Source: Salminus brasiliensis (Eukaryota; Chordata; Actinopteri; Characiformes; Bryconidae). From it: DNA of 64,000 bases. Within the stretch, counting starts at the first letter, position 1; each line of letters opens with the position of its first letter. Made by a program: the position numbers and the translations under genes. The stretch spans positions 87,368,355-87,432,354 of the forward strand of contig NC_132878.1 of assembly GCF_030463535.1 (NCBI RefSeq). Direction: 5' to 3'. Below are positions 10,368-39,072 of the stretch, in pieces. The notes under the pieces were generated by a model, which ran no database searches, had not been told where the DNA came from, and saw only the letters and a program-made list of their open reading frames with translations.

Positions 10368-10601
10368 GATATCGGCCTGTCGTTCCTGTATGAATATAGA
10401 TGTTCTCCTTCAGAAAAGGAGCCGATAAAGGTCTAGTTTAGGTCACTTTTAGGTCGTTTTTCCGGAGGTCGCCGTTTAGCTACCTGTCCTCCGCCGTGGA
10501 GCCGAGGAGGAGTCCGTTAGTCAGGGGATTCAAAAGCTGCTCGCGTGAACTTCTGTCTCACGAGCCACGAAAAAGGCGCTAAAAGTGATGACGTAAATCA
10601 T

Positions 10602-15010: not shown

Positions 15011-15347
15011 AGAACCAGACTTGGCTTCTGAACTTTATTTATAACCAATGATTTCTTGCAAGCTTCTTATTATTTGACCTCAGCCCTGTTTTTAAATAAA
15101 TCTGCCATTTTTTAGAGTGTTTGACTTATTTTTGATCCTTTGAGAATCTTTCACTTTTATATATTGTATGTTTATTCAACTTTGCGTCCGTGTAACATTT
15201 GGTATGTATATTAATAGACCTTCTGTTGGTGTAACATTTCATACTTTCCACCAAAAAGTCCCCCAAAGAACCCACATGAAACAGGAAGCAACCAAAACAG
15301 AGCCAAATAAACATGTTGCCTGAACAGACTTTTTTTTTTTTTTTCAG

Positions 15348-16269
15348 CTGCCAATCTAATATAGCCCACCTCAGGATGGACCGCCAGAATGAACGAAATC
15401 ACAAAGAAGTGTTCTTCCCAGGGCAGCACTTGAAGTTTCATGAACTTCGAGAAAGGATCCGTAATGTGTATCTGAACAGATATCAACACATCCCAAGATC
15501 CCCTGATCCTGTCGAGTTTCATGTGTCCAATCTAAGGCACGATACTTGCTACAGCAGCTTCCAGGCCATCATGAGGGATGGCGGATTTAAGAAACCTGGA
15601 CCTGAAGTCACCTCTGCCAAGAGCCTGGTGTGGTGGAGCCTAGCAGTGTCAGAGGACGACATTGCGGAGGCTGAGTGCCGTTTCCTTCAGTACTTCAAAA
15701 TGATTGAAGATTGTAAACCTTTCCTGCGCAAGTTCACCTCCTCACCAGCGTTCAGGAAGTCCTCTAGGATGGGGAACTTTCGCTTCACCTTCTCATTGAG
15801 GGGACTGCTGGCCAATTATAAGGCCCAGTTCTGCATGGGACAAGAACCACAGATACGCATTTATGAGACGGTCGTCTACAAGCAGGAGGTCATGTATTCC
15901 ATAGTGGTCCATGGTCCAGCTGCCCAAAACGACTTTGGGAAATACCCACTTCTGCAAGACTCTAGAGCCAATGCAGTGTGTTTGTTCCAGGGTGAGAACA
16001 TACTATGGAGACCAGAGGGCATGAGCAAGACTCATGCCTTTCGGCTGGTTATGGGTGAAGAGGTGCTGGCTCGCCGAGTGCTTAGGAGGAAGCGGCAATT
16101 TTATGCATGGGATCATGTGGCGGTGGCATTCCACGTCCCACAGGGTAAGACCTTCAAGTTTGACCATGGGACGCTGCGTAGCCACCTGAGCCTCTGTCAG
16201 GGAGCAGAGCTAAACCTTAGCAACGAGGAATTTATACAGTGTGATTTTGAAGCCTTACTAACTCAGTAG
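15348..16269 (+). CDS. Family gene A: divergent member of a four-paralogue cluster of unknown function
   Basis: One long exon after a T16CAG acceptor at 15347. I place the start at ATG 15376 (context AGGATGG), giving 297 aa. The frame is also open back to the acceptor in phase 2, exactly as in genes B-D, so a missed tiny first exon could add a few N-terminal residues. It shares the family core: FxxIMRDGGF, VWWSL, DIAEAE, FTSSPAF, MGNFRFTFSLRGLL, YKQEVMYSIVVH and WDHVAVAFH. The H-x-T of its paralogues is H-D-T here, keeping the His and Thr. It lacks the C-terminal 20 or so residues of B and D. AATAAA lies at 16349-16354. No named domain recognised. The H...Glu order hints at an ADP-ribosyltransferase-like fold (inference only). 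It is the most diverged copy, so probably the oldest split. Confidence 0.85.
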
Positions 16270-16348
16270 CCAGTGTGCTTGATGATGCCAATTACCTTGT
16301 TTTATTCTTAGGATTGTCTTTCTTTGTAGATCTGATTGCAATCTATAC

Positions 16349-16354
16349 AATAAA
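16349..16354 (+). terminator. Polyadenylation signal of gene A
   Basis: AATAAA 80 bp after the gene A stop codon, followed by AAAGCAGTTTG and a T/G-rich stretch. Confidence 0.7.
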
Positions 16355-16379
16355 GCAGTTTGATAAAAAAAAATCTGTG

Positions 16380-18150
16380 TTCTTTTTCTTAAAATTGCTG
16401 TTTAATCTACTTTTTGATAAGGTCAGAATGCATTCTTACATTTTTGCATAATTGATTGCATAATTTAGTCTTCAAAATGAGTGGATGTGAAAAGACATAC
16501 TGCAGGGAAACATAGGATAAAGGTTGGTAAAGTGGGACAGTTGGGAAAACGTAATTTTTCTGTTACTTCTTATTATAATCGAAATGCCATATATAATGAT
16601 CTAATAAAATTTAGCGAGTTCAGACCATACAATTAGCTTAGGATTATTTGGGAGGAGACCTCAGAGGACTTTGGGCTGGAGTTTGGGTGGCTTCTGCTTT
16701 GTGGAAGCCAGCCCCCCTCTGATATGTGGAGCCAGGAATGATAGACGAAAGTTTAAATGGACGAAGGTTGTGAATACTTTGTCATAGACATGTGAAGAAG
16801 GCAGAGATGGAATTCATAGGATGTTTGATTTGGGAGGAGGTTGGGCTTCAGGCATGTTCCTCTTCCCAAAATGTAGAAATGTCTAGAAGCTTAGGTTATC
16901 TTTAATACATCTTTAACCCAAAAGAAAATGAGAAAATACCAAAGCCAGATGAAATGATGTTGCTTCAAATCTCAGCTGAACACACCCCAAAGGACATTGG
17001 TAAAGTGGGACACTTTGCAGTATGTTGTATTTATCATAATATATCATTTCAGTAACAAGAATGAATACAGGTATTCAAATATTTTTTTAAAAAAATGGCA
17101 CATAAATGTAAACATTTTTATGGTTTCTTACCATAAAATCATTGAGAAGAATGATTAAAAACAGACTTGAAATAATATAATAGATGATAGGTTAAGGTAC
17201 CACATTGTAAGACACATGGTGTAAACATCAAGAAATAGAGTGAAGTAAAGCACATGAATTTGGTGTTGTGTCCAAGGATGTAGTGGTAAGAAATCGTGGG
17301 TAACTCTAAACTTCAGTCAGCATGAAGAATCGAAGGATCACATACTGATGGCTATTTACATGTTAAGCAAAGGTATTGTATCACTGGGCCTTAGCATGAC
17401 ACAGCCAGCCCTACCCAAGTTCTAAAGATGTGCAAGAAAAAAGACCCTATGAACTGGGGAGGGGCCTGCTCTGGGGTGAGGGAGAGGTGAGCAGCTTAGC
17501 AGGACTCTATCTTACTGAATATCTTTAGTCCTGCATATTGTTATTGTTCACAGTGTGTCTTTTTCTTTTTCTCTTTCATTTTCAACCATAATTAATAAAT
17601 AGGCGGCCACATTTGTGATTCTCAATGTCGGTTCATTGGCTGAATGTTCTCTGGATAGTTGCAAAATACATACACAAAGAAGAAATCTGAAAGAAGTCAG
17701 AATTGTGGGCTGCTGGCAAATTCTCAGGATATACTTTATATGATCTGTTTTATAAATCTATAATCTAAAGGCCCGAAGTGGTACGTCTTTATGTGACACT
17801 GCATCTGCAACAGTCAAATAAGTCACTAGGTTTCTCTTTAGGCCCTTATCTATGAATGCATGGAGATTGGGTGGCTAGGGATGTTAGGATGTCTAGGGGC
17901 ATCCAGCACTCACACACTGTCAAAGATCCAAATGAAGTAGTAATTGTGGGGTGTGCAATGGTTTGGACTCCCTCGTTATGAAGTCTCACAACTCATTAGG
18001 CCCTAATTGGCTTGTTAGAACTGATTAGGCAGCTTAAGAATTGCCTTTAGGGACAATTCCAGAGTTTGGTAAATTCTCAGACTCCAACCAGACTACAACC
18101 ATAGGTTTTCTCTAAGCAGTTGGCTGGTGTCATTGCTTTCTCCCTATCTT
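16380..18150. other. Intergenic sequence without recognised features
   Basis: AT-rich, non-coding in all frames as far as I can see. Two short stretches 'GGTAAAGTGGGACA' (about 16528 and 16998) hint at an old internal duplication, but nothing stronger. Confidence 0.5.
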
Positions 18151-18300
18151 CCCCAATCAGCTAATAAGCACTTAAAAATGATGCATAAAAGAATCCAGCT
18201 CTGTAGTCAATAGAAAGGCAGAGTACAACCTTTATTTTTCCATAAAGTGTACAAAAAGTATAAACACTAAAGCTTCTAAACAGCCTGGCTCTGATTGTTA
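18150..18300. repeat. Dispersed repeat, copy 2 (cf. 440-580)
   Basis: GCATAAAAGAATCCAGCTC, TAGTCAATAGAAAGGCAGAG and CATAAAGTGTACAAAA match the copy near 480-560 over about 110 bp. Confidence 0.65.
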
Positions 18301-18980
18301 TCATGATGCAATTACCCCTATGCATATTTTGAGTTACAATACATATAGGTTGGATCCGCTTATGTCCAGGCCCTTTCTTGGAGACCTGGGTACTTTTTGC
18401 ATCCGCTTATGTCTTGCGCGTCACATGTTTTTTTTTTTTTTTTTTTTTTAAAGTGCTGACTCCCACATAACTGAGAACTTTGGCAGCCCTCCAAGCTGTT
18501 CACCTCTGCTTCACCCCAACTAAGCCCCTCCCTACTTCGCAAGGGCTATACACCAGTTTAAGCGTGAGACAAAGCCTGGTTGTGTCACGCTAAGGCCTTG
18601 TGGTATAATACATTTGTTTAATATGTTTTTAACGTAAATAACCATCACTGGGTGTCTGAAATTGAAGCTAATGCCTACAAAGCTAAGGACGTCTATTAGA
18701 AGATATCATGTCACAGTGGCCTGAGAATATCACAGCACTAAAGTAAAACTAGTAACAGTGAGAGTTCTGAATTTTACTATATAATGTTTTGTAAACAAGA
18801 CAATTTGACCTGTTTACATATTTATAATTATATAAAGTTATTACATTTACATTGTATTTAAAATGTTTATAACATATAGTACTGTGCAAAGGTCAAAGAC
18901 CACTCTTCATTTATGTAATTAAAGGTTAATCATTTTAGCAGAAATCATATTTAACTGAAAATATCACATATGCCACAACA

Positions 18981-20123
18981 TCAGATATTGTATCAGTATC
19001 TAGATATTGTATCAGATATTGTATCAGTATCTAGATATTGTATCAGATATTGAATCATTATCTAGATACTGTATCAGATATTGTATCAGTATCTAGATAT
19101 TGTATCAGATATTGAATCAGTATCTAGATATTGTATCAGATATCAAATCAGTATCTAGATATTGTATCAGATATCGAATCAGTATCTAGATATTGTATCA
19201 GATATTGAATCAGTATCTAGATATTGTATCAGATATTGAATCAGTATCTAGATATTGTATCAGATATCGAATCAGTATCTAGATATTGTATCAGATATTG
19301 AATCAGTATCAAGATATTGTATCAGATATTGAATCAGTATCTAGATATTGTATCAGATATCAAATCAGTATCTAGATATTGTATCAGATATTGAATCAGT
19401 ATCTAGATATTGTATCAGATATTGAATCAGTATCAAGATATTGTATCAGATATTAAATCAATATCGAGATATTGTATCAGATATTAAACCAGTATCTAGA
19501 TATTATTCAGATATTAAACCAGTATCTAGATATTATTCAGATATTAAATCAGTATCTAGATATTGTATCAGATATTGAATCATTATCTAGATATTGTATC
19601 AGATATTGAATCAGTATCAAGATATTGTATCAGATATTAAATCAATATCGAGATATTGTATCAGATATTAAACCAGTATCTAGATATTATTCAGATATTA
19701 AATCAGTATCTAGATATTGTATCAGTATCTAGATATTGTATCAGATATTGAATCATTATCTAGATATTGTATCAGATATTGAATCAGTATCGAGATATTG
19801 TATCAGATATTAAATCAATATCGAGATATTGTATCAGATATTAAACCAGTATCTAGATTTTATTCAGATATTGAATCAGTATCTAGATATTGTATTGGAT
19901 ATTGTATCAGTATCTACATAATATTCAGATATTGAATCAGTATCTAGATATTGTATCAGATAGTAAATCAGTATCTAGATATTGTATCTAGATATTGTAT
20001 CAGATATTAAATCAGTATCGAGATATTGTATCAGATATCATATCAGTATCTAGATATTGTATCAGATATTAAATCAGTATCTAGATATTGTATCAGATAT
20101 TAAATCAGTATCTAGATATTGTA
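18981..20123. repeat. 31-bp minisatellite, about 37 copies
   Basis: Tandem array of a unit built from TATCTAGATATTG, TATCAGATATTG and AATCAG. Each full unit contains the perfect palindrome TATCTAGATA and two or three (A/T)GATA words. Variants alternate TTGAATCAG, TTAAATCAG, TCAAATCAG and TCGAATCAG; several units have lost GTAT (TAGATATTATTCAG), and that variant recurs in clusters near 19500, 19690, 19860 and 19920, showing block amplification. It lies in the spacer between genes A and B. Confidence 0.92.
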
Positions 20124-20129
20124 TTTTTA

Positions 20130-21250
20130 TTTATATTTATTTTATTTACATATATTTCCAGTTTCAATGTCTAAATATCCCTAATATTTGATAAGGTAAT
20201 TCCTCTTTTAAAAGGGTGTTATTATACATTAGTATGCTATTATATCATCATTATATCAGTGGCAATAACAATACACCAATCTAAAATCATAAAATTAGAA
20301 TAAACTTTTCATTATAATTTATTTTTTTACAGTTATTTCTGTGACAATATGACATCTGAATAGCTATCGTGACAGTGATACTAGGTGACTCTCACAGTAA
20401 TACCATGGCTTACTACAGTTTTAAAAAAATGTTTTTTCCTTAGCAAAACCTTGCGTTTTGGGTTTGTGTATTTCTAGAACTGCTGATCTTCAACAAAATT
20501 TGGTTTCCTGAGATTTTCAACAAGATGTTTCCATCCACAGAACTGCAGCTCACTGGATGTGTACTTTATTACACCAGGCTATTACACAGAACTTACTCAG
20601 CTCAACAGTGAATGCTGCCTGCTGAAAAGACAATAGACCCTGCAGCTTAATTTGGTGAAGCTGGTTGACCAGTTTAGCTTGTGACCTACACAGGGTATGT
20701 TGTTATTGGAGTTTGACTCCAATGGTTTAGCTGGTTAACTAGCAAGACCAATGTTGAAATGGGAATATTAAGCATTAAGCATTAAGAGTAAGCATTAAGC
20801 ATTAAGATATGCTTATAGAGCACAGTGACGCAGTGGAGTCAGATGCAGAAACTGGTTTTGTAGAGTATAGTAGTTGTGTGCAAGCAAAAGAGGAAGCACC
20901 TTGGCTGCAAGCAGATACGTGTCACACATACATAGACAGTTGTGAAAACATGTCAAAATAGTATAATGTGTTCCTGGAACAAGAGCACAAGTGAGACAAA
21001 CCACTGCTAAAAAGATATGGAATTGAGTTCAGTCATACTGGTCCACTAGCTTGATCAAATTGGTCGTGGTAGTAAACCAGATAAACCATCAATAAAAACT
21101 CAATAATAACATGCATACTTATCTGGCTTACCAGAATGGTTATAAGTGTTTGCCTAGATATCCAGCTTTTCCACCACCTTGACCAAGAAAGACCAGCTTA
21201 GACAATCTGAAACCTGCTAACTGGTCTTAGCTGGATTTTTCAGCAGGGGG
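20130..21250. other. Spacer upstream of gene B
   Basis: Non-coding. A small tandem AGCATTAAGCATTAAG run lies near 20770-20808. No gene or element recognised. Confidence 0.5.
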
Positions 21251-21251
21251 T

Positions 21252-21261
21252 GAAAGTGAAA
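21252..21261 (+). promoter_or_regulatory. ISRE of family gene B
   Basis: GTGAAAGTGAAAGTTG contains an exact GAAAGTGAAA core 450 bp upstream of gene B's ATG exon. Identical core to those before gene D and the TRIM35-like gene. It lies at the left edge of the sequence shared with the gene C promoter region. Confidence 0.65.
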
Positions 21262-21702
21262 GTTGCTTAGGGCCCGGTTCCCCAGAATCATCCCAGAGTT
21301 AAGAGTGCTAAGTTGAAGGGGAAACCCAGCCTGGAAAAATGCAAATCTGTTAAGATTTCATTTTATATGAAGCTGGAACATATTAGGGTTTTGATTAACT
21401 GTGTCCGTGAGTCAGTGGAAATACCCATCACAAACAGCAGTAGATATTTTTTGTATTGTTTGTGTGCCTTTGTCTGTCTGTGTGTGTATGTGTGTTACAG
21501 TCCGGTCTCTGATCGTCAACGCCCAAAGGCAGGAAGGTAGGTCTAGAGGGAGGCTTATAGAGCAGTGTTTACAGCTCTTAGCCAGTTTATCTCAGCTGCA
21601 TACTCCTACAAGTTGGCACGGCTGTATTTGTTGGGGGGATTTCCACTGACTTCCACTGACTCTGCTGTACAGAGAACTTCACAAAGAAAACCAGAGGGCA
21701 TC

Positions 21703-24700
21703 ATGGCCGAGAGAAGGTAAACAGACTTCAAATTATTAGTTATACTATATAGTGATAGTACAGCACTTGAGTTTGGCGTTTGAGTAATTTCCCCCACTTT
21801 TATGTTCACGCTTGTTTATGGAGGTCTGTGGTTATACTGACCTTGTTAGGTCTTCAGTTTTAGCTCAGGGTTTCAGAGAGTCTTGTCTGCTCTAGTTCCT
21901 TTGCAATCTTTTTAAAATCTGCATTTATTGACTTATCTACATGTTATTTGTGGTTTAAAGGTTTTCCACACTGTGGACAAAGTTCTAGAAGTAAGTGATC
22001 TGACTATCAATTGAGAGTTAAGAACAACTAGTGTGTTAGATTCTGTCCAATTTATTTGAAACTCATTAACAACTTATATGTTAGGCAGCTTTTCCTTTGT
22101 ACAGAATATAAATTCATTTATAGACCAACCTGACTTGAATACTGTTGCTCTCCCGTGCAAAAACATGTACCTCCATTCTGTTTGCTGTTTTTGACTTTTT
22201 AATATAATCAGCCAGTTGTTTTTTTTACATTCTGTCAAAATCTCATGATATAAGAACCAATAAAAATGATTTTAAATTACTTGGAATATGATTGGACATT
22301 CACTTCTGTTGTAGATTACATGAAGAAGTTGTTTTTCTTCTGCTGTAAAGTTGTCATTTAGTATTTTCTTGACAGTGCTGATATGCTAGCATGGAAATAT
22401 GTGAACTGAATGGGCTACAGTTCTTAAGATATCTGTAAAATGGGCTAGCAAAGACTTCAAAGTGCCACAAGCAAGATAGATGTAAATTGAATGGAAGCAG
22501 GGTAACATGCTCTGACTTTGTCTTGCTGGTTTGAGACAGAGACAGCAGGATAATAGTCAGTAAAATTGCAATAATATTAAGCTTGGAAAAGCCTTCATTA
22601 ATTTCTTAGCAATTTATTGGGGTCTGTGGGATATATTTAGTCTAAACCATCTAATTACTCAATAAAAACCCCGAAATAATGCAAAAATCCTTCCAGCTCT
22701 GAAGTCAATAATAGGGAAACATAAAGTATCCAGAGAAGGTTTAAAGACTAAGGCACTAATACATAATGTGTCAAAAGGTACGTGTGCAATGGTTTGACTG
22801 GCTGCATCTGTCACTCTGATAGGGCAAGTCCATCCAGGTAATGATATAGACATTAATCGTAGAACCTGGGGTCTGGACAATTTGACCTAAGCAGAGGATC
22901 GCCCACCTATATAGATGCAATAGGGATACCCAGACGATGTCCCAAACGAGTTTAAATTGGCGGATCAAATTGCTGCGGGTTTTGAAAATATTCCAATTGT
23001 TTCTGCCATATTTCCAGTTACCCCAAATAAGAATGTGGATCGGATTAACTATGTACACTATAACGTACTGTGCCTGACTAATATCACTCGAGATGCAGTG
23101 GAAGGCCTGAGAGACCAATTAGGTCCGACGTCTCTCATGACCATCCAAAAGGACGGGGTCTGTTTCATGTTCAATGAGGCGTGTTGCACTGTCGTGCCAA
23201 ATCACACTGCACCAGATGGGTCAGTCTCCAGGGCTCTGGAGAGTCTTAGGACCTTATCTAATGAAATGCATGAAGCATCAGGTATCAGTAACCCTTTGGA
23301 GGACTGTATGACAAACAAGTTTGGTCAATGGAAGAATTGAATCATGTCACTTTTCATGTCTATTGCTGTTTTTGTAGCTATTATGGTTACCTGTGCTTGT
23401 TGATGTGTTCCATGTATCAGAACCTTGATTGTTAGATTAATTACTGTCATGTCAGGAAGGAAGAATGACCGAGGACCTCCTCCGGGTTACATAATGCCAT
23501 TGTTGGAGGCTGAACGTGACCCGAAGGACTCTGAGGAAGGGATAGAGATGAAGGATGTTTGTTAGGTCATAAATGACCTAAACAGGGGAACTGTTACAAA
23601 AATGATTGCTGTGTACTAAATGTATAATGTTTCTGATTAGTTGTATATTAACTACAGAATGTCTTTAATTAGGCTAAGAAATTATAAAATGATATAATTT
23701 GTACTGATCAGTGGTATTTGAAAGGCCTAACACTAAATCGGAAAGGCCAGTAAATCGAATAACCATGTATGGGTGCACTTGATTGAAATGTAACTTTTGT
23801 GTTTGAGGGAGGGAGTGTAAGGACAGACAGTCCGGAGCCACAGGACAGTAAATTCTCTGTTTTGAAGGCCACAGAGGCACTGAGAGAGCAGCTGCAAGGA
23901 AAATTTGGCAGAAAACCATTTTGAGATCTGTCCTGGGGGTGGGGAAAACTGTCCTCACACCATATTACAGGGAGGGGTTTTGGGTTTTGGGTTTTGACAG
24001 CCAGTGTTCCCCAGTGCAGTCTGAATCATTCAGATTCTCCCTGCAGTTTATTGTACCCCTTAACCCCTTACCGCAGCAAGCCTTATTACACACTAAGGTG
24101 TATTAATCAGTAACTACAGGGACTTCTGGGGACTTTAGGAACAAACTGATGGGGCTATTCTTTGGTAATAGTAGTTTTTAATAACATTTTTGCCCCACTG
24201 GACGACCATAGGCTGTCCTCCAGTCCTGAAAAGTTTTTACTTTAACCAACAAATTAATAGTGATAATGGTATGCAGCATATTTTTGAGGAAAGTCATTTT
24301 TGTATCAAGTTTTTTTTTTTTTATTACTATCATTTTGTCATTTATTTACATACACTTATTAATTTTTGTTTATGAATTATCATATCTGTGACCTGATCTG
24401 TGAGGGTTTTACCATTTATTTAAAATGAAGACTGAATCAAAAATAATCAAATTGCTCCAAAAAGACTTAACTAGCTATAGTAATAGATGCTAAATATACA
24501 ATGAAATCCCAGTATGAACCGATCAGTCAACACATTACCACCACCTGCCTAATATTGAGGTACCTCTTGTGCTGCCACAACAGATCTGAGCATTTGAGGC
24601 ATGGACTCCACAAGACTTTAGAAGGTGTCCTTTAGTCCTGTAAGTTGTGAGGTGAGGTAAGTTGTCAGTAATCATCTAAAGTGCACTAAAAGTCAAAGTT

Positions 24701-25663
24701 CCAATGTGTCCTTCCTTTTTCAGAAAGTGGACGAAGTATAGAAATTCCAGAGGCTGTGTTGTAACATGCTGTGAAGGTGAGCATGTGAGTTTATCAGAGC
24801 TGAAAGAGGACCCTGGTTTGGACAACCAATACCTGAAGAAGAGAAACATACCCCCTTATCCAGAATCCGCAGTCTTCTACGCACCCAACGTGTGTCACGT
24901 GACTGCGCAGAGCGGCCTTCAGGGAATCTTTGCTAATGGTGGCTTCTGGGTTCCGCACCACGAAGGATATGACAACTTCCTGTGGTGGAGCCTGTCGCTG
25001 ACTGAGTATGACATTGCTGAAGCTGAGGAGAATTTCCTAAATGAGACATTCCCAGATGGCTGGAACCAGAACCAGCAGCCTTTCCTGGAGGATTTCACCA
25101 CCTCACCAGCGTTCCAGGACGAGTCTCGCTACGGCAACTTCCGCTTCACCTTTCCTCTGAGAGAGCTCTTGTCTCAGTACGCCAGACAGTTCTGTGGCAA
25201 ATCCGCCCCAGTTCTACGTGTGTACAACACCCAGATCTACAAGCAAGAGATAATGTACACGGTGTTGGTGCATCCACGACACATTAACCGCTATAAACAA
25301 TACCCTCGCCTGCCTGTTGAGGAAGACGTGTGTGGGTACTTCCAAGGCCAAGTGTCATGGTGGTGTCAGGCTCCTTCAGGCGCCCATCACTACAAGCTTG
25401 AAGTAGACCAAAGGAGGAGAAAAGTGAATGTGAGGACACTTAGACGTGAGGAATATTATGTGTGGGATCACGTGGCTGTGGCCTTCCACATGGAGCCGCA
25501 CTGGATCCTGCGTGTCAATCAGGCACGCCTATATAACAGCTTGACAGTGTGTGAGGTCTCTCAGTTGAATCTCCTGAGGAAGCCAGACACTGGCCTTAGA
25601 GTGGACGATGCTGAAGAAATGCTTAATGATTTGGGTATAGAGTACAACTTAATCTACTATTGA
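21703..25663 (+). CDS. Family gene B: full-length member of the four-paralogue cluster
   Basis: Two coding exons: 21703-21716 (ATG-GCC-GAG-AGA-AG|gtaaac) and 24724-25663, joined in phase 2 to give 317 aa beginning MAERRKWTKYRN. Core landmarks: H-V-T at 63-65, GGF 77-79, WWS 92-94, FTTSPAF 129-135, YGNFRFTFPL 141-150, the invariant Glu of YKQE at 180 with EIMYTVLVHP, and WDHVAVAFH 252-260. No signal peptide, transmembrane helix or known domain seen; probably cytosolic. The H-x-T ... Glu-hydrophobic-Tyr order is reminiscent of PARP/ART folds (inference). The 3-kb intron contains a retroviral env/LTR fragment in the same orientation. AATAAA at 25954-25959. The upstream ISRE suggests interferon induction. 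Sequence 25140-25500 is almost identical to gene C. Confidence 0.88.
22650..22790. repeat. Dispersed repeat, copy 3 (degraded), next to the retroviral fragment
   Basis: TTCCAGCTCTGAAGTCAATA, GGTTTAAAGACTAAGGCACTA and ACATAATG match parts of the 480-590 copy with many changes. Its position directly left of the env relic makes it possible that the repeat is part of the same retroviral insertion. Confidence 0.4.
22924..23400 (+). pseudogene. env: Endogenous retrovirus env (TM subunit) fragment, broken
   Basis: An open stretch (22924-23340) encodes the C-terminal part of a gamma-type Env. It has the conserved ectodomain block upstream of the heptad region, a C-x6-CC cysteine motif at about 23160-23190, and a downstream heptad/tryptophan region ending FGQW. 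A TGA at 23338-23340 separates this ectodomain from a hydrophobic, membrane-anchor-like stretch that continues in the same frame to about 23400. The region before C-x6-CC is shorter than is usual for such proteins. No SU subunit, pol or gag is visible on the left. A relic inside the intron of gene B, same orientation. Confidence 0.8.
23592..24118 (+). mobile_element. Probable 3' LTR of the retroviral fragment
   Basis: Starts TGTTAC directly after the purine-rich AACAGGGGAA (a polypurine-tract-like primer site) and ends ...AACTACA, a TG...CA unit of about 527 bp lying about 190 bp after the env anchor region. A TATA-like ATTATAAAATG lies at 23681-23691. No matching 5' LTR is in the window, so the boundaries rest on the PPT and TG/CA rule only. 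Confidence 0.6.
24510..24660 (+). mobile_element. Tc1-like element fragment (family with copies at 27.5, 57.0 and 58.8 kb)
   Basis: GATCAGTCAACACATTACCACCACCTGCC resembles (in two parts) the terminal words GATCAGCCATAACATTA at 58.8 kb and CACC.TGCCTAATAT. It continues with GTGCTGCCACAACAG, a common fish Tc1-type 3' segment. Short and non-coding. Confidence 0.5.
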
Positions 25664-27870: not shown

Positions 27871-27879
27871 AAAGTGGTA
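27870..27879 (+). promoter_or_regulatory. Degraded ISRE position of family gene C
   Basis: The right copy of the duplication has GAAAGTGGTA where gene B has GAAAGTGAAA, in comparable flanks (about 30-40 bp before CCAGAAT.ATCC). Two of ten core bases are changed, so the canonical GAAANNGAAA is lost. Alignment of the flanks is by eye and includes a short gap. Confidence 0.4.
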
Positions 27880-28326
27880 TAAACTTTGAAATGCTCACAA
27901 TCCAGTTTTCCAGAATAATCCAAGGACTAGGAATGCTCAGAACAAGGTAAAACTCAGCCGGGAAAAATATAAATCTATAAAATTGAATTTGGTATAAATC
28001 TGGAACTAATTACCACCCATTTCATGGTAGGGTTGTGATTAGCCGTAGCTGTGAGTCAGTGGAAATACCCATCAGAAACAGCAGTACATATTCATTGTTT
28101 GTGAATGTGTGTGTGTGTGCGTTTGAATTTGCGTGTGTGTGTGTCTTGTCTCTGAGCATCAACGGCCAAAGGCGGGAAGGCAGGTCTAGAGCAATGCTTG
28201 TGGTTACAGCTTTTAGCCAGGTTATCTTAGCTGCATACCAGTACAAATTGGCACTGCTGTGTTTCTTTGGGGAATTCCACTGACTCTGCTGTACAGAGAA
28301 CTTCTCTAAGAAAACCAGAGGGCATC

Positions 28327-28988
28327 ATGGCTGAGAGAAGGTAACAGATCTAAAATTATTAGTTATAATATTTAGGGATAGTACAGCGCTTAGCCTACAA
28401 CTGAGTTAGGCGATGTGAGTCATTTTTTCACACTTTTTTTCATGCTTTATTCCTTTGCAACGTTTTAATTAGTATTAATTTACTTATCTACACTCATATC
28501 GCCTGTTTAATTTTAGTTACCATAAGAGTTGTAATAAATGAATAAAGAATGAGCAGAACAATTATGCTGTAAAAAGAGTTTTGCTAATTTTTTTTGCAGA
28601 TTTTATTCATAAAAGTAAGACAATTGAGAGGCAATTTAGTGTAATTGAGTGTCTGAGAGTTGTATTGCATCAAAAATATTTGAAACTCATTTTTAAGGAA
28701 GCTTTTACTGTGGAATATAAATGAATTTTCGACCTGACATTTAAAAACACCTGTGCAAAACCTGTGTTTTCAACTTTTTAACATAATTCGGCAGTTGTTC
28801 TTTACATTGTGTCAAAATGTCATGATGAATTACCAATAGAACTATTTTGCAGATCTCTTAGGAATTTAGATCCGCTCAGAACTCGTTTTCAGTGCACATT
28901 TTCATTCTAGCATAGCAGTGCTGTCACACAAAAACTTTATTACATTTCAGTAAAAGTAGAAAAAAACCCTAAAATAAATAAATTAATG

Positions 28989-29057
<69 letters not shown>

Positions 29058-31495
29058 TTGTAACATTTTAATTGGTCAATTCATCATGACATTTTAACAC
29101 AATGTAAAAAACATATAAATACATAAATTAATCTAATTAGAAATAATTATTTAGATATAATACATAAAATATTTTTCAAATGGACTTTTATTTAAATTTA
29201 ATAATGTTTTTGTGTGACAGCACTGCTATGCTAGAATGAAAACATGCAATAACAAAAGTGTTCTGAGTTTAGGACTAAGAAATCTGCAAAATAGGCTCGC
29301 TAGGACTTCAAAATGGCAAGCAAAAAAAAAAAAAAGTTAAAAAAAAAAGTTAAAAAAAAAAAAGTAAACATGAAACTGAATAGTAAGCAAGTACATACAC
29401 AACTGAATAAAAGTAGTATAAAAGTAGTAGTATTTTATTTTCTTGCAAGGATCCATATTGAGACAGCAGCACAACAGGCTGTTACCTTGCTGTGATATTA
29501 TCTAGAGCTCAAGGAACCATTAATTCACTTCTTAGCATCTGTGTGGGTTCATCTGTGTAATGTGTATGGGTAATGTTTCTGTGAGGAAGCAGTTTTAGAG
29601 AGTGACTTACATGGTTCTCAAGTTATTAAAACAGAATCAATGAAAAGTGCTAAAGAGAAAAACAAAACAAACAAAAACGTGTACACCCATGTTTTGCAGA
29701 TTTTAGTTCGTTGCACCAAAAAAAGTTATAAAGAATAAATAAAAAAAACAAACAAAAAAACAATTTACCACAGTGTTTTAAGCAGGCTTAGTGCCAGGGG
29801 CAGTACTTTCATTTCACCAGAATTCAGAAGAAGGAAGTTTGTGGTCTTTCTGCCGTTTATGACTTTCACAGTCTGAAACTGAATGAGCTGATTTGTACAT
29901 TGCTGCCGAAAAGTCCTTATTTTTAATAATAAATTAATAGTGATCATTGCTAAATGCCTTAAATGTAATTATAGTAAATAGTATAAAATGTTGTATTTGG
30001 GCTAAGTTAGGTTACATTTACTTAAGTTGAAATAATGAGGTAATCAATCTTTTTCAGTTTGATATGAATTCATTTTGTTTAGTTTCTTGTGACTGATCAC
30101 ATATGTGACCTCAGATTGGGGCAGTGGTGGCTCAGCAGTTAGAGCGCCGGGATATCGATAACAGGGTGGTGGGTTTGATACCCGGGCTCAGCAAGCTGCA
30201 ACTGTTGGACCCTTGAGCAAGGCCCTTTACACTCTCTGCTCCCCGGGCGCTGGAGTTGACTGCCCACTGCTCTGGGTGTGTTAAATGCAGAAGACACAGT
30301 GTACACTGTACAGTGACAAATATGTGCACCTTTAGATGTTTAAGCACTTATTTTAAATGAAGAGTGAATGAAAAAAATTAACTGGCTCCTCAGTGACTTC
30401 ACTGTAGGGATAGATGCTGGAAACACTAAGATGTCCCACTATATGTCTCTGAGTTACTTTGTACTTACATAGTTTTGCACTAAGCATCTGCTTTTTCTGT
30501 GGTACAAGATCACTAAATATCATTGAAGGAGAGACTTGAAAAGTAAACTTGAAATTGAGAATTGAATTACTGATTTCTAAACGATCAGTACTGTATCTCA
30601 GTAATCATCTAAATCCAATCCATCTTTTTTCAGAAAGTGGACGACGTATAGAAATTCCAGAGGCTGTGTTGTAACATGCTGTGAAGGTGAGCATGTGAGT
30701 TTATCAGAGCTGAAAGAGGACCCTGGTTTGGACAACCAATACCTGAAGAAGAGAAACATCCCCCCTTTTCCAGAATCCGTGGTCTTCCACGCACCCAACG
30801 TGTGTCACGTGACTGCAGAGAGTGGCCTTCAGGGTATCGTAAAAGATGCCGGCTTCAAGATCATGTGCTGTGAAGATGACGACAACTTCCTTTGGTGGAG
30901 CCTGTCGCTGACTGAGTATGACATTGCTGAAGCTGAGGAGAATTTCCTAAAGGAGACATTCCCAGATGGCTGGAAGCAGAACCAGCAGCCTTTCCTGGAG
31001 GATTTCACCACCTCACCAGCGTTCCAGGACGAGTCTCGCTACGGCAACTTCCGCTTCACCTTTCCTCTAAGAGAGCTCCTGTTCCAGTACGCCAGACAGT
31101 TCTGTGGCAAATCCGCCCCAGTTCTACGTGTGTACAACACCCAGATCTACAAGCAAGAGATAATGTACACGGTGTTGGTGCATCCACGACACATTAACCG
31201 CTATAAACAATACCCTCGCCTGCCTGTTGAGGAAGACGTGTGTGGGTACTTCCAAGGCCAAGTGTCATGGTGGTGTCAGGCTCCTTCAGGCGCCCATCAC
31301 TACAAGCTTGAAGTAGACCAAAGGAGGAGAAAAGTGAATGTGAGGACACTGAGACGTGAGGAATATTATGTGTGGGATCACGTGGCTGTGGCCTTCCACA
31401 TGGAGCCGCACTGGATCCTGCATGTGAAACGAGCACGACTGTTACAACAGTTGACTATGTGCAAGTTAACTCCAAAAAATCTCCTGAGGGATTAA
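28327..31495 (+). CDS. Family gene C: paralogue of gene B with a shortened C terminus
   Basis: Exons 28327-28340 (ATG-GCT-GAG-AGA-AG|gtaaca) and 30634-31495 give 291 aa starting MAERRKWTTYRN. Residues 1-55 and from WWS onward are nearly identical to gene B. The stretch between H-V-T and WWS differs (GIVKDAGFKIMCCEDD versus gene B's GIFANGGFWVPHHEGY), so the family GGF is AGF here. After ILHV the C terminus changes to KRARLLQQLTMCKLT and stops at LLRD, about 26 residues short of B. The 3' flank still matches gene B's, so the tail was lost by a local rearrangement. The upstream ISRE is degraded. It may be a functional variant or be losing function; the frame is fully open. Confidence 0.85.
28990..29054. 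repeat. (TA)n microsatellite in gene C intron, flanked by inverted sequence
   Basis: About 30 TA units. On the left 28800-28925 contains CATTGTGTCAAAATGTCATGATGAATTACC and on the right 29070-29110 contains its reverse complement (GGTCAATTCATCATGACATTTTAACACAATG), so the tract sits in an inverted repeat that includes CACTGCTATGCTAGAATGAAAA. Described here in pieces. Confidence 0.7.
30115..30340 (+). mobile_element. tRNA-derived SINE (family 1)
   Basis: GGGGCAGTGGTGGCTCAGCA, GTGGGTTTGATACCCGGGC, CTGTTGGACCCTTGAGCAAG and the tail GTACACTGTACAGTGACAAA...GTGCACCTTTA. It lies inside the gene C intron, absent from the matching gene B intron, so it inserted after the duplication or was lost from B. 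Confidence 0.85.
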
Positions 31496-31549
31496 GACAT
31501 TACAGTCTAGTCTAGTGACTCAGAGTACCTAGTCTAGTCTCTACTATTG

Positions 31550-33110
31550 ATCAGGGGTGTACAGTCCTACTGCTGGAGACACCAAACATTTTTACAAGCC
31601 CAACTACACACCTCCAACCTAGGCATTCCAGGGGCTGAGACTCATCTTGAGGTTATTTTTTTAGTTCTAGGTTCCACAGGTGGGTGGTTTTACTGCCACA
31701 CTAGTGTTTCAGTGCTGTAGTACACCCTGCTAGCATGCTCTAGTGTGGGGGACTTAGGCTTTTATAGAATAGTCCAACATTTTTCACACTTTTTCTGTTT
31801 TTATAGTCTGTCTACAGATTATACAGCTGTGTCTTCACTGTCTTCAACATAGCATCTTTATCTTCAGTACTGGCTTTTGCCATAGCCTCTCGCCAATTTA
31901 GATTTCGTTACAGCGGTCCTGACAGCAACCCATCAATTTTGCTGCACAATGCCCTGCTCGTACCCCTACACCCGAGGGCACCGGATAACTTAATCGTAAC
32001 CATTAACCTTTAAGCAATGTAGGTCTAATTGCTTTCTGTGTGGCACCTTTTAAATGCATTAAACTCTTCATATGCCTGGTTCTCATCATCACCACTGGGA
32101 AATATTTAGACTCATTGATTTCTGAAATGACAAATTTCAAACCCACTCTAATGTAGGGCTTCTTTGTGTACATCATAACCATTCAATTACTACAGTTTAG
32201 AAAAATGGTGGACTTCCCCTTCAAGCTAGATGCTTTATTTAGTTAAATTTTGTTACATCCTTGGCTGTGAGTTACAGTGGCTAAATGTTACTTGAATACT
32301 GCAGTATAAATGGTGTGCTACCGTTACAGAACCTTTGTATTAAATCAGTCAGTGATAAACTGACCCAATATGACCTAAAAGTCTATGGTGCGTCATATTG
32401 GGATTAGTACGGGACACTATTGTCTTGCTTCAGTTTTCAGAATAAATGAAGATATTTTAAACTGAAGACTGCTGCATGGGTCAGGAGTGGCCAGGCACAG
32501 GCCTATGGTCCTATCATAGGCTTAATGCTGATGGCAGTAATAGAGACACTATAGTCTTGCTGTCTCCTTCTATGCCCTTTAGAAGCCTACAGGAGGTTAG
32601 TGAATGTAGGACTGTCTCTGCTGTGTGAAATGGACATTCTGCAGACATCTTTTCTTCCACCGTCCACAAGAGGGCTGTCGAGGGCTGCACATGTCTAGCC
32701 AGCTGTTTACAGTAGCATTAGCATCTCAACCTGCATATGGAAATATTTTCCTCACTGTCAAGCAAAAACCTTGTATTTCCAACAAACAGCAAATTTACAG
32801 GGGAGGGAAACCTCCTTCTTAGCTTTCAATGGAAGTCTATGTAGAAATATTTCATTTCAAGTCATTTTGGAGCGTTTCTATTGGTCCATTCGTCAGGAAA
32901 GTTTGACACAATGTAAAGAACACTCACATTATGTCACAGTGAAAAATGGACATACAAGGTTTCTGTGACTGCACATTTCAAGTGTTATTCCTTTAATAAT
33001 GTCAGTGGTGTTAATGACTGTTCTACCATGTATTGCTTAGCTTCTTAATAATATAGCATATCTTTTCATGTAGAGAAAAAATACCTGAATAAAACAATGA
33101 ATACAAAAAT
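31550..33110. repeat. 3' flank of gene C, right copy of the segmental duplication
   Basis: Starts with the same ATCAGGGGTGTACAGTCC as after gene B and keeps collinear matches to 26.7 kb, broken by an extra block at 31860-32230 and at 32460-32700 absent from the left copy. No gene recognised. Confidence 0.6.
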
Positions 33111-33479
33111 AATGCACTTTCTTTCATTGTTCAGTTTTTGTGTCTTGAACTCATCTGCATCTTTCCACACACATGCTCAATTTTACCCAACATTTTGGAT
33201 AAAGTGAATTGTCCAACAGTTCCCATTTTATCCGAACAACTTACACTGTTTTTGCTGTTCCAAACCTGACCTGTGCGCCCCCAACTGGTTAAATTTTCAG
33301 TTCTGCTGTGTCTGTAATGATGAAACTGAGATGAAAGCTTCCGATTGATAACTCTCCCACTAGTTGCTGTGGCAAAGCATGAAGCAGTCACTAAGCCCGG
33401 CTTTGGTGCTGAGAGGGGGAGCAGACGCTAATGTTTAGGGTGGAAGTACTCTTAAGAAAACTATTTGTTTACATTTATG

Positions 33480-33650
33480 GAATTTGTCTGATGCTCTTAT
33501 CCAGAGTGAGTCTTTTCTGAATCAGGTTACACAGCTAAGAGAATGCAGTGTAAGGAGTCTTGCCAGGGAAGCATACCCAGTCTGCCACGGCAAGGACTGC
33601 GTTGTTACCCACTATGCTACACCATTCAGCACCAGGCCCCCATTTCAATC
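33480..33650. repeat. Common fish interspersed sequence
   Basis: TTGTCTGATGCTCTTATCCA, GAGTCTTGCC, then GTTACCCACTATGCTACACC: the widespread fish repeat whose second copy lies at 26815-26960. Non-coding. Confidence 0.55.
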
Positions 33651-33734
33651 TTTCAGAGGACCAGTTTTTAGTCATGGTGTTATTTAGAACCAATGCTTTC
33701 TCTAAGGAACAGCTAAGGGACCACATTAGGCAAC

Positions 33735-36085
33735 ACCCATGCACCCATCTGAAAAATCACAGCAACCACCAAAAAATACCCTAGTAACCACCAAGACGCA
33801 CCTTAGCAACCATCTGAAATACCATGACAACTGTCTCAGAAACCACCTGAAGTACTACAGCAACCCCCTAGCATCCACTAAGAAACACCATAGCACCACA
33901 TAGCAACCAAACCTCACATCTTAGCAACTACCTGAAATACAACAGCAACCATCTAGAATACCTTAGCAATTGCCCTAGCAACCGCTTAATAACACCTTAG
34001 CAACCATCTGAAATACCATGGCAACTGTCTCAGCAACCATCTGAAGTACTACAGCAACCCCCTAGCATCCACTAAGAAACAATATAGCAACACCATAGCA
34101 CCACATAGCAACCATACGTGACATCTTAGCAACTATCTGAAATACAACAGCAACCACCTAGAATACCTTAGCAATTGCCCTAGCAACCACTTAATAACAC
34201 CTTAGCAACCATCTGAAATACCATGGCAACTGTCTCAGCAACCATCTGAAGTACTACAGCAACCCCCTAGCATCCACTAAGAAACAATATAGCAACACCA
34301 TAGCACCACATAGCAACCATACGTGACATCTTAGCAACTACCTGAAATACAACAGCAACCACCTAGAATACCTTAGCAATTGCCCTAGCAACCACTTAAA
34401 AACACCTTAGCAACCATCTGAAATACCATGGCAACTGTCTCAGCAACCATCTGAAGTACTACAGCAACCCCCTAGCATCCACTATAAAAAACAATATAGC
34501 AACACCATAGCACCACATAGCAACCATATGTGACATCTTAGCAACTACCTGAAATACAACAGCAACCACCTAGAATACCTTAGCAATTGCCCTAGCAACC
34601 ACTTAAAAACACCTTAGCAACCATCTGAAATACCATGGCAACTGTCTCAGCAACCATCTGAAGTACTACAGCAACCCCCTAGCATCCACTAAGAAACAAT
34701 ATAGCAACACCATAGCACCACATAGCAACCATACGTGACATCTTAGCAACTATCTGAAATACAACAGCAACCACCTAGAATACCTTAGCAATTGCCCTAG
34801 CAACCACTTAATAACACCTTAGCAACCATCTGAAATACCATGGCAACTGTCTCAGCAACCATCTGAAGTACTACAGCAACCCCCTAGCATCCACTAAGAA
34901 ACAATATAGCAACACCATAGCACCACATAGCAACCATACGTGACATCTTAGCAACTACCTGAAATACAACAGCAACCACCTAGAATACCTTAGCAATTGC
35001 CCTAGCAACCACTTAAAAACACCTTAGCAACCATCTGAAATACCATGGCAACTGTCTCAGCAACCATCTGAAGTACTACAGCAACCCCCTAGCATCCACT
35101 ATAAAAAACAATATAGCAACACCATAGCACCACATAGCAACCATATGTGACATCTTAGCAACTACCTGAAATACAACAGCAACCACCTAGAATACCTTAG
35201 CAATTGCCCTAGCAACCACTTAAAAACACCTTAGCAACCATCTGAAATACCATGGCAACTGTCTCAGCAACCATCTGAAGTACTACAGCAACCCCCTAGC
35301 ATCCACTAAGAAACAATATAGCAACACCATAGCACCACATAGCAACCATACGTGACATCTTAGCAACTACCTGAAGTACAACAGAAACCACCTAGAATAC
35401 CTTAGCAATTGCCCTAGCAACCACTTAATAACACCTTAGCAACCATCTGAAATACCATGGCAACTGTCTCAGCAACCATCTGAAGTACTACAGCAACCCC
35501 CTAGCATCCACTATAAAAAACAATATAGCAACACCATAGCACCACATAGCAACCATATGTGACATGTTAGCAACTACCTGAAATACAACAGCAACCACCT
35601 AGAATACCTTAGCAATTGCCCTAGCAACCACTTAAAAACACCTTAGCAACCATCTGAAATACCATGGCAACTGTCTCAGCAACCATCTGAAGTACTACAG
35701 CAACCCCCTAGCATCCACTAAGAAACAATATAGCAACACCATAGCACCACATAGCAACCATACGTGACATCTTAGCAACTACCTGAAGTACAACAGAAAC
35801 CACCTAGAATACCTTAGCAATTGCCCTAGCAACCACTTAATAACACCTTAGCAACCATCTGAAATACCATGGCAACTGTCTCAGCAACCATCTGAAGTAC
35901 TACAGCAACCCCCTAGCATCCACTATAAAAAACAATATAGCAACACCATAGCACCACATAGCAACCATATGTGACATGTTAGCAACTACCTGAAATACAA
36001 CAGCAACCACCTAGAATACCTTAGCAATTGCCCTAGCAACCACTTAATAACACCTTAGCAGCACCTTAGCAACCCCTGGGATTTA
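33735..36085. repeat. TAGCAACC satellite with 205/207-bp higher-order repeats
   Basis: Degenerate roughly 20-bp TAGCAACCA units are organised into about ten 205- or 207-bp blocks. Using the anchor AATATAGCAACACC, blocks start at about 34081, 34286, 34493, 34698, 34903, 35110, 35315, 35522, 35727 and 35934. Type A has ACTAAGAAAC before the anchor (spacing 205), type B ACTATAAAAAAC (207). The order A-A-B-A-A-B-A-B-A-B, with shared private variants inside matching blocks, shows a trimer (617 bp) and a dimer (412 bp) each duplicated as a unit. The array ends about 375 bp before the ISREs of gene D. Confidence 0.93.
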
Positions 36086-36460
36086 GTCAAAGCAGTTCCA
36101 CACTATGGATCATATGGCAACAGCTTAGCAGCTGCCAGGACGTGGGCAACCACTAAAGCTGTGCTACCAGTCTGTGCTGCTGTTTTTCCAGCTATCAATC
36201 CTCTATTTTTCGCCGAGCCAAAAAACAGAGGCCTAAAAACTGTGGACTCACAGCTTTGACAGTGCACCAAAGGTGGGATCTTTATCTGATGATCACTGGG
36301 CATTCGAGTTAGTGTATAAAATCAAACACACAAACTCATTTCTAGAACTTTCTAAAAATGAAAAACTGCAGCAAAACTATCAGTTATTCTCTAATAAGAA
36401 AAACTGACACTGTTTAACCCTGTAAAGAAACACGGCGCCTCTAAATACCCTGAATCCAAT

Positions 36461-36480
36461 GAAAAGAAACGAAAGTGAAA
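36461..36480 (+). promoter_or_regulatory. Tandem ISRE of family gene D
   Basis: GAAAAGAAACGAAAGTGAAA contains two overlapping GAAANNGAAA matches (GAAACGAAAG and GAAAGTGAAA), 200 bp upstream of the gene D ATG. This is the strongest interferon-type element in the window. The following 200 bp are GC-richer than the surroundings, as expected for a promoter. Confidence 0.75.
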
Positions 36481-36680
36481 GTCCTGACACTGCACATGAT
36501 CACACCAGTAAGGGCCAGTCTGACTACAAGTGCCACGTTCGCAAACTCGTAAAGCAGCTCAGACCAGGGTTTGGGGATTGGGCGTAACCTCACTGCTGGG
36601 AGCGTGTCCGGAGGTCCGGAGAGGGCGAGCGGTGTCCGCTTACACACACAGACACACGCCTGGAGAAACGAGCGGGGATC

Positions 36681-39072
36681 ATGGCTGCTCAGAGGTAAAG
36701 AGAACAGGTAGCGCTGTAGGATCATCAGCTGCACAGTGTGCAGCGTTTTCCCGCCAAAATGGAACGGAGGGCGCGAGAGAGAGAGTTGCCGAGGAAACGA
36801 GCGCGGTAAATTAATATATCATAAAGATATATAAGGAAAGCTGAGCTGAGGCGTTTAGATACCGCGGTGTGGAGGCAGGCTGTAAAAATGGAGCACTAAA
36901 GTGACTTCATGTGGAAACAAGCTGGTAAAAACGGCTTAGTAAACTTAAAAACGCCTTCATTAAAATAATACTTCATTTAATTAATATCATATAAATATAA
37001 TTCATTTGTGCCCTGTTCGACCTTTTGGGTTTAGTTTTACAGAACCAGGTTAATAATCAGACAGTCCAAGATAATAATAAAATAAGGCATTCATATATAA
37101 TATCTAAATAAAAGGCATACTACATATATATATGCATACTATTATATATATATATATACACACTTTTATAAATATATAAACAAAGGTAAAATTATTCTTA
37201 GCAATTGTTTGAAAAAACAAAAAAAAAAACAAACAAATTAAAAGTCCACAGAGAAAAAGGTTTCTATTTCATATATTGTTGTATTATTTTCTGGCCTCAA
37301 TATATAATTTCTGTCCTGTAGAAACGTAATTCTTTATGAATATGTTACTGTAGAGACTTGGATGAGCTGCCTTCTGTTGGGTAACTATGTTTAATCAAAG
37401 TCATGACAGGTCATTATGTAGAGAAGCCTATTTCAGTACCCAATGCAGTACCTAATTTTATTATTATTTTTATTAAGCAAATTGTTACATCTAATTATTC
37501 TGAGATACAAGGTTGTTAGTTTGTCTGGGTTTGTCCAGAGATGCTTTCTCATTAGTTTCAGATACTGCCTCACTGTTTTTGAAAAAAAAACAGTGAAAAA
37601 AGTTTCTTATTATTTTATGATGTTTTTCTCGTTCTTTTAAGATTTTTTTCTAATGTTTTAGAGATGATTTCCTTTATTTTAAGGCAGCAATAGACTTCCA
37701 TAGGAATGGGCTTCCATACAAATAGGAATACTATGGAAACTCAACCCGTATTATACTTGTAAGACCATTAATCAATAAGAGACCATCTGAATAAAGTATA
37801 AAATGCTAAAAGCCAGCAGTCGTTGTCTTGCTATGTTTGTCTTGATCTAAAGTGCTGGTGAACTGCTGGTCAGCATAATCTAGATTCTAGAAATTTGTGG
37901 TGGAGAAAAATCAGCGAAACCTGTGGACCTTTTACCACAGTACCTGTACTGTAGGCCCAGCTGTAGTCGATTGACTGCAGTTGGAAAACTGTGAAAATGT
38001 CTTTTAATTAAATCGTAATGGAACGTATCTTTCTTGAGATTAATAAATGAATTCGGTCAAAAATAAAAACACACATTGTTGAATAATCATGTAAATGCAT
38101 AACAAATTAAAAGCCAGTGTTTTTTTTCTTTCCAGAGAATGGATTCTGTGCCAAAACTCCAGAGGCTTTGACTTCATGTGCTGTAAAGGTGAGCATGTGA
38201 GTGTATCAGAGCTGGAAGGGGACCCCTGGATAGACCAGTACTACTTGGGAAAGACCAATATTCCATGGTATCCAAAATCCGTCTTTCATGTATCTAAGGT
38301 ATGTCATGTGACTGGGGACAGTGGCCTCTATAGTATCTTCAATAAAGGCGGATTCCAGAAGCCCCATTTCTTAGATGACAACTTCTTGTGGTGGAGCTTA
38401 TCTGTGACTAAGGATGAAATAGCTGATGCGGAAAAGAACCTCCTAAAGAAGATATTCTCAGCCGGCCAGGCCCACAACCAGCAGCTTTTCCTGGAGGATT
38501 TCACCACCTCACCAGCGTTCCAGAGCAAGTCTCGCTACGGCAACTTCCGCTTCACCTTTCCTCTGAAAGAGCTCCTGCGTCTGTATGCTACGCAGTTCTG
38601 CACCGATTCTTCTCTGGTCTTCCGCATATTTGACACCGAGATCTACAAGAAGGAGATTCTTTACACAGTGTTGGTACATCCACAACACGTTGCCCGCTAT
38701 GACAGGTATCCCCGTCTGCCCTGTGGTGACAGTGCTGTGTGTGGGTATTCCCAGGGCAACATCTCATGGCGCTGTCAGGCTCCTTCAGACAACCTCCGCC
38801 ACCAGCTGGAGGTGAACAAAGAGGAATGCAGAGTTCATGCTAAGCCACTTCAGAGTGAGGTGTATTACGTGTGGGATCATGTGGCTGTAGCCTTCCACAT
38901 GGAGCCAGGCTGGATTCTGCGTGTGGATCCAAACCAACTGTCCAGCAGTGTGAGTGTGTGTGAGCTCTCAGAGATCAACCTCTTGAAAGAGCCAGACACT
39001 GCCCTCAGTGAGTCTGACGCCCATGCAGTACTCGAGAATGTGAGGAGACAGTATGGATTAGGCCTGGTCTAG
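36681..39072 (+). CDS. Family gene D: full-length member of the four-paralogue cluster
   Basis: Exons 36681-36694 (ATG-GCT-GCT-CAG-AG|gtaaag) and 38136-39072 give 316 aa beginning MAAQREWILCQN. Same landmarks as gene B: CHVTGDSGLYSIFNKGGF, LWWSLSVT, FLEDFTTSPAF, RYGNFRFTFPLKELL, YKKEILYTVLVHP, YYVWDHVAVAFH and a C-terminal tail ...INLLKEPDTALSESDA like B's. It is clearly separate from the B/C pair throughout, so an older duplicate. The ISRE pair and GC-rich leader in front of exon 1 fit a regulated promoter. AATAAA motifs occur at 40274 and 40282. Function unknown; no transmembrane or signal segment seen. Confidence 0.88.

Follow-up and report, generated by a model that had tools for sequence, protein, structure and literature searches.

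What do four neighbouring genes of the fish Salminus brasiliensis encode, when none of them credibly matches a family that has a name? The window analysed here, the whole stretch of 64,000 nucleotides at C1:87368355-87432354 (+ strand) of a genome of 1.07 Gb, carries four intact paralogues on its + strand, A, B, C and D, of 297, 317, 291 and 316 amino acids. A first-pass annotation had located them, could attach no family name to them, and proposed that they might adopt a divergent ADP-ribosyltransferase (ART) fold and, given interferon-type elements in their promoters, form a family of fish immune effectors. The genes are indeed there, and their spliced frames are free of internal stops. With the predicted Salminus protein P0001, which is gene B, as query, tblastn against the window finds B, C, D and A with E values of 0, 1.8e-179, 4.3e-117 and 1.4e-52, a similarity far above chance; identity to P0001 over the aligned parts is 86% for C, 58% for D and 39% for A. 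The four genes belong to a family of ray-finned fishes that has no name and, in the titles and the beginnings of abstracts searched, no description.

The reading that we prefer, and hold tentatively, is that these proteins are interferon-induced, divergent ARTs that would act against viruses by ADP-ribosylation. As a single mechanism an ART-type enzyme is the best candidate, plausible and unproven: it rests on motifs and on their position. The core would most likely be a divergent ART fold, its NAD+ pocket lined by H63-x-T65 of the first strand, by S132 with the FTTS strand about it, and by E180 of YKQEIMY; in an infected cell the protein would attach ADP-ribose to some target, of the host or of the virus, and would so restrict the infection. 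The family and its listed range, the conservation of its residues, the mosaic of B and C and the cores of interferon-stimulated response elements are established by the data; the fold, the enzymatic activity, the target, the antiviral effect and the place in the cell are inferred.

A family of ray-finned fishes

A search with gene B at E <= 0.01 yields 205 relatives among 803 candidates; 120 of them are listed and 85 lie outside the listing. Range and copy number, proposed at the outset as points to check, can be read from the listed entries. A species is named for 96 of the 120 and missing for 24: all 96, with the class judged from the species names, are ray-finned fishes, from gar and bowfin through perch-like fishes, and some fishes (Colossoma, Clarias, Sparus) have several entries. 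Nearly all of the listed relatives are annotated as uncharacterized, hypothetical or unnamed. One of them, P0015 of Hoplias, 55% identical, is named si:ch211-197h24.9; in the literature, as far as the accessible text of the sources goes, this zebrafish clone name, si:ch211-197h24, was found only as a name in a stickleback gene list. Another, P0102 of Cololabis saira, bears a TIM protein name: its 518 predicted amino acids hold the family domain and a PF04548 domain, which we take to be that of the AIG1/GIMAP GTPases, and this fusion may be a gene-model error. In scans of bacterial and archaeal contigs and of viral contigs, 31 and 100 stretches fit a pattern, and none was confirmed as a relative.

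Pfam, NCBIfam, PADLOC, PHROGs and PDB give no credible match; a clear match to a characterised family other than the ARTs was looked for and not found in them. The window exons have no Pfam match deserving belief and no credible NCBIfam match, and the best Pfam E value, obtained for 2 of 80 members, is 0.019. Six members have no match in PADLOC and three matches in PHROGs, at E 0.095 or worse. 2H phosphoesterases also have H-x-T; this identity was set aside, since no second H-x-T was seen by eye.

The ordered motifs described earlier are shared by all four genes, but with small variants in two of them: gene A reads H-D-T rather than H-V-T, SF..I where the others have GL..I, FTSSPAF and MGNFRFTF, and gene D reads EIADAE. 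All residue counts refer to the alignment of the 120 listed relatives, a second family alignment being made of 80 of them, and the numbering is that of gene B. Residues H63, T65 and F79 are each present in 119 (one gap each) and I73 in 115; S132, G142, Y157 and T174 are conserved in all 120, W252 and D253 in 119. The middle residue of H-x-T is V in 82 and D in 33, and the Gly of H-G-T is not retained. The Glu of YK(Q/K)E had been called invariant: it is present in the four window genes, but in the family it is not strictly so, position 180 being E in 112, Q in 5 and K in 3. The eight relatives with Q or K (P0018, P0020, P0023, P0087, P0088, P0095, P0100 and P0113) are possible pseudo-enzymes.

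A possible ADP-ribosyltransferase fold and its rivals

The distance between the His and the Glu of ARTs is about 100-130 residues, 126 in PARP1, and E180 stands 117 residues after H63. This spacing is shared with PARPs (PF00644; for example PARP12, PARP14 and PARP15), and H-x-T with a presumed helix ending in [GN]-F is in part like their first motif: the motif H-x-T-x7-I-x4-G-F resembles the start, HGTSQDVVEGICKHNF, of a Salminus PARP12-like protein, and H63 faces the H of HGT when residues 55-200 or 50-210 are aligned. The family differs from PARPs by V or D in place of the Gly of H-G-T, by the lack of a Pfam match and by the lack of a conserved Tyr; the window genes are outside the 38 matches of PF00644 in the genome at E <= 0.001. 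With the ecto-ARTs (PF01129, the R-S-E class), the likeness lies in FTTSPAF..SRYG, to be compared with FTSTSL...SRFG in the Salminus ecto-ART L024; a Glu follows in both, at a distance from Ser, counted by eye, of about 35-37 residues there and 48 in the family. Of the R..S-T-S..E-x-E set of ecto-ARTs only an FTTS-like segment is found: His stands for Arg, E-x-E is absent, and there is no Pfam match.

Gig2 genes, which the accessible part of one article describes as PARP-like interferon-stimulated genes of fishes (PMC3617106), resemble the family in being non-amniote and interferon-linked and in their start, which is HGT..I...GF in Gig2; their best local alignment with the family covers residues 62-126. 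In contrast to the family, Gig2 keeps the Gly of H-G-T, carries a GVYLS segment with its Tyr as well as E-E-D-C-V-W-D-P, and matches the Pfam PARP model; the last motif, present in the Salminus Gig2 genes, is not found in the A-D family, nor is the pairing of a PARP-like N-terminus with a Gig2 C-terminus. The Glu at residue 248 (E-Y-Y-V-W-D), directly before YYVWDHVAVAFH, was considered as the ART Glu instead of E180 and set aside because this position is not constant (E in 57, Q in 30, V in 8 and K in 7 of the 120). Elsewhere in the genome, nine open frames of ecto-ARTs form a tandem cluster at C4:42398744-42468891 (PF01129 has 14 matches genome-wide), and there are tandem clusters of Gig2-like and PARP12-like genes (C18:14648064-14667116, C2:39553665-39711460).

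The family was compared with profiles built from 119 of 120 listed PARPs (1028 found), the remaining one, the Gig2-like P0233, being transferred to the Gig2 profile; from four Gig2 sequences, three of them from the Salminus genome; and from eight ecto-ARTs of Salminus. Position is more telling here than score. With residues 55-200, the best alignments cover the HGT of Gig2, the HGT of PARP and the FTSTS of ecto-ARTs, and the register of H63 and of F129 is the expected one. The HGT of Gig2 and the FTSTS are covered in collinear order in all four sub-regions tested, and in none of 300 column shuffles or 150 block shuffles of residues 55-200. Taken singly, the motifs are covered more often: in 9 (Gig2), 35 (ecto-ART) and 35 (PARP) of the 300 column shuffles, and 7, 28 and 29 of the 150 block shuffles. 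An initial set of 60 shuffles gave 3 for Gig2, 4 for ecto-ARTs and none for both, and two of the 60 reached the summed score. We grade this as moderate support for an ART, because the sub-regions were picked after a first look at the data, the full length fails the position test, and the reversed profile likewise covers FTSTS, in 4 of 4 regions. A crude guess of secondary structure from propensity values is compatible with an ART and not specific for one.

Several other results weigh against an ART. Among 80 members searched against Pfam at E <= 10, the matches are to 22 families, each with at most three members and none of them an ART; consensus sequences give one weak DUF only (E 0.23). Sequence searches of PDB with family profiles give no match; the sole PDB match of a consensus, PAXX at E 0.25, was set aside as not credible. 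Run on the Salminus genome itself, the DarT model (PF14487) has no match at E <= 10, and the HYD1 model has a single one, at E 4.2, on another contig. Profile similarity to the known ARTs is not significant: the PARP profile scores 11.7, when the mean of 60 shuffles is 14.3; the score of 16.9 with Gig2 is matched by 9 of 100 shuffles; and that of 21.8 with full-length ecto-ARTs is matched by 2 of 100, in an alignment that pairs residues 47-61 with the part that follows the ART Glu. Restricting the comparison to residues 55-200 leaves scores that are matched by 4 (Gig2), 10 (ecto-ART) and 29 (PARP) of 40 shuffles. Region 62-317 covers FTSTS in a different register, and the PARP position is retained in only two of the four sub-regions. 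No conserved counterpart of the PARP and Gig2 Tyr, the second motif of H-Y-E, is found in the family: opposite the Tyr of Gig2 stands residue 96, a variable position with S in 49, A in 26 and K in 18 of the relatives. The eight replacements of E180 point the same way. An earlier idea, that a Trp-Trp pair stands in place of the PARP Tyr, was withdrawn, the profile alignment showing no such pairing, and the odds of an ART are slightly lowered by this withdrawal.

It is natural to ask, then, whether the likeness is due to chance. The family would then be an interferon-induced antiviral one of unrelated and perhaps new fold, acting by binding rather than by catalysis, in which H-x-T and the Glu are structural. 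The absence of any ART match in the sequence and profile searches that can be scored speaks for this alternative, as do the loss of the Gly of H-G-T, the missing counterpart of the Tyr, and a set of highly invariant columns, including W217, W252, D253, P199, T174 and Y157, that extends beyond the supposed triad. However, the order and the place of the ART motifs on the sub-regions are then left to coincidence, and the profile method is a poor witness: in a control, it detects the relation between PARP and Gig2 (91%) and misses the accepted relation between PARP and ecto-ARTs (0.1%), so that its silence on this family is weak evidence. We regard an unrelated fold as rather doubtful.

An ART that is no longer catalytic, its fold serving as a sensor of ADP-ribose or NAD+ or as a decoy, has an analogue in PARP13. 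The variable residue that faces the Tyr of Gig2, and the Q or K at position 180, are what one would look for in such a protein; however, conservation of E180 in 112 and of H63 in 119 of the 120 is above expectation for a dead enzyme, which makes this alternative improbable. An identity with Gig1, or membership of one of its branches, which would make the family an antiviral interferon-stimulated gene of fishes already described, is improbable: in the accessible text of one article, Gig1-like genes are fish-specific, interferon-induced, and present in three tandem copies on salmon Ssa03, with PANTHER PTHR38706 as the only family name given, but they encode 222-240 amino acids, have their frame in the second exon and lie near nlrp3 and abcc6b.1 (PMC12247413), whereas the A-D family, judged against that description, has 291-317 amino acids, a coding exon 1 in B, C and D, and other neighbours. 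No protein named Gig1 is found among the matches listed (120 of 205), nor among 23 short-protein relatives drawn from 473 candidates.

Gene structure, copy history and interferon-type sites

We now turn from the divergent ART that these proteins may be to the genes themselves, the coordinates of which are collected in Table 1. Genes B, C and D have a common design: a coding exon 1 of 14 bases (MAxxR, with a phase 2 split codon), the remainder being a single exon. Gene A has its start within its only coding exon, much as in relatives from gar, salmon and tilapia, where M is followed, at most eight residues on, by N and R; its splice acceptor, at 15347/15348, is read from the sequence. The splicing of B and D agrees with the predicted database proteins P0001 and P0013, each a 100% match; that of A and C is based on the DNA alone. 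Two more copies lie near 39.73 Mb on contig C10, which brings the total noted in the genome to 4 + 2.

Table 1. Features of the four paralogues, in positions of the window
Feature	Position	Strand	Remarks
Gene A, last (coding) exon	15348..16269	+	ATG at 15376, stop at 16269; 297 amino acids; 'HDT' subfamily
Interferon-stimulated response element (ISRE) core GAAAGTGAAA	21252..21261	+	451 bp 5' of the ATG of gene B
Gene B, exon 1, coding part	21703..21716	+	MAER and split codon; from sequence and predicted protein P0001
Gene B, exon 2	24724..25663	+	whole protein 317 amino acids, same as P0001
Gene B, motif 1, H63-x-T65...I73....G78-F79	24896..24946	+	signature resembling the first strand and helix of ARTs
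Gene B, variable cassette, codons 67-90	24908..24979	+	escapes B/C homogenisation
Gene B, motif 2, FTTSPAF...YGNFRFTF, residues 129-148	25094..25153	+	resembles F-T-S-T-S..FG of ecto-ARTs
Gene B, motif 3, YKQEIMY with E180	25238..25258	+	candidate catalytic Glu, from conservation
Gene B, YYVWDHVAVAFH, residues 249-260	25454..25489	+	rival site for the ART Glu (E-x-x-V-W-D as in Gig2)
Gene C, exon 1, coding part	28327..28340	+	from sequence
Gene C, exon 2	30634..31495	+	whole protein 291 amino acids
Gene C, counterpart of the codon 67-90 cassette	30818..30889	+	from dS comparison
ISRE AAACGAAAGTGAAA	36467..36480	+	214 bp 5' of the ATG of gene D
Gene D, exon 1, coding part	36681..36694	+	from sequence and predicted protein P0013
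Gene D, exon 2	38136..39072	+	whole protein 316 amino acids, same as P0013

A tree of 115 of the 120 listed relatives and four genome copies groups D with a protein of Astyanax at a support of 0.94 and B with C (1.0), and puts A in a clade of 35 proteins (A and 34 others, 0.999); the C10 copies are in a separate clade, with a support of 0.99 for six. Old and young copies thus stand side by side in the cluster. The relation between B and C is not uniform along their length: the number of synonymous substitutions per site (dS) is 0.044 in codons 91-260, 0.99 in codons 67-90, and 0.57 in codons 261-300 (31 aligned), so that B and C differ at the C-terminus and in the loop that follows the conserved His. 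The longest identical run is 266 bases, when the maximum in 10,000 permutations is 121, and the preceding intron is only 37-72% identical per 60 bases. The mosaic is best read as the trace of gene conversion of the exon core. Tandem duplication and gene conversion would keep the core uniform, and divergence of the His63 loop and of the C-terminus between B and C is what one would predict of parts that determine the target. The ratio of nonsynonymous to synonymous rates (dN/dS) is 0.51 for B-C and 0.42 for B-D overall, and 0.42 and 0.59 in the cassettes: being below 1 in each case, it does not show the positive selection for which a test had been suggested.

The claim of interferon-type promoter elements holds for half of the cluster: the GAAANNGAAA core is found within 2 kb of B and D, but not within 2 kb of A or C. 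In the whole window it occurs 12 times, 3.9 being expected, mostly away from the four genes. The longer core GAAAGTGAAA has three occurrences in the window, at 10602 (-), 21252 (+) and 36471 (+), when 0.29 is expected; the last is 210 bp 5' of the ATG of gene D, and no exact copy is found near A or C. A fourth, at C10:39734983 (-), precedes the open frame of the second C10 copy, on the other strand, by about 0.5 kb; for the first C10 copy there is no more than a looser site, some 1.2 kb 5' of its frame. Exact cores near B, D and one C10 copy thus make 3 observed against 0.016 expected in 6 x 600 bp, a test framed after the sites were seen and with the base model of the window applied to C10 too. 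As ISRE cores adjoin three of the six genome copies, the family is probably induced by type I interferon. These cores, the same core at a TRIM-type neighbour, the several copies in several fishes, and the conversion between B and C all support the proposal of a fish immune effector family.

The neighbour in question lies on the minus strand, with a PRY/SPRY exon at 4744-5319 and a RING and B-box exon at 9714-10409; the core at 10602 is about 235 bp 5' of the first ATG of the RING/B-box frame. Two tandem arrays are also present in the window: one of about 37 copies of 31 bp, at 18980-20124, and one of 205/412 bp (97% matches), at 33799-36060, directly 5' of gene D, from which a large part of the strong GC skew at 32001-36000 probably stems. 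The intron of gene B contains, at 22924-23337 (+), an open piece of 138 codons with no credible Pfam match, which we presume to resemble the transmembrane part of a retroviral envelope protein.

Significance for fish immunity

Fishes carry interferon-linked gene sets whose chemistry is unknown, and the A-D family, which is listed from gar to perch-like fishes and fits no model of the libraries searched convincingly, would be one of them. In its fullest form, the preferred reading would make it an unrecognised clade of ARTs confined to ray-finned fishes, combining a PARP-like H-x-T with an ecto-ART-like FTTS strand and a conserved Glu, driven by interferon, and with the loop beside its active site diversified by conversion between tandem copies in an arms race with viruses; that all of this holds together is unlikely. 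If the family is indeed one of ARTs, it would form a second fish-specific arm of ADP-ribosylation beside Gig2. Even if it is not, a family that is probably interferon-driven, and whose copies diverge in restricted loops, is a good candidate for a role in the conflict between host and virus. Given the precedent of the Gig1-like genes of salmon, as presented in the accessible part of that article (PMC12247413), the family is also a candidate in the mapping of disease resistance in aquaculture.

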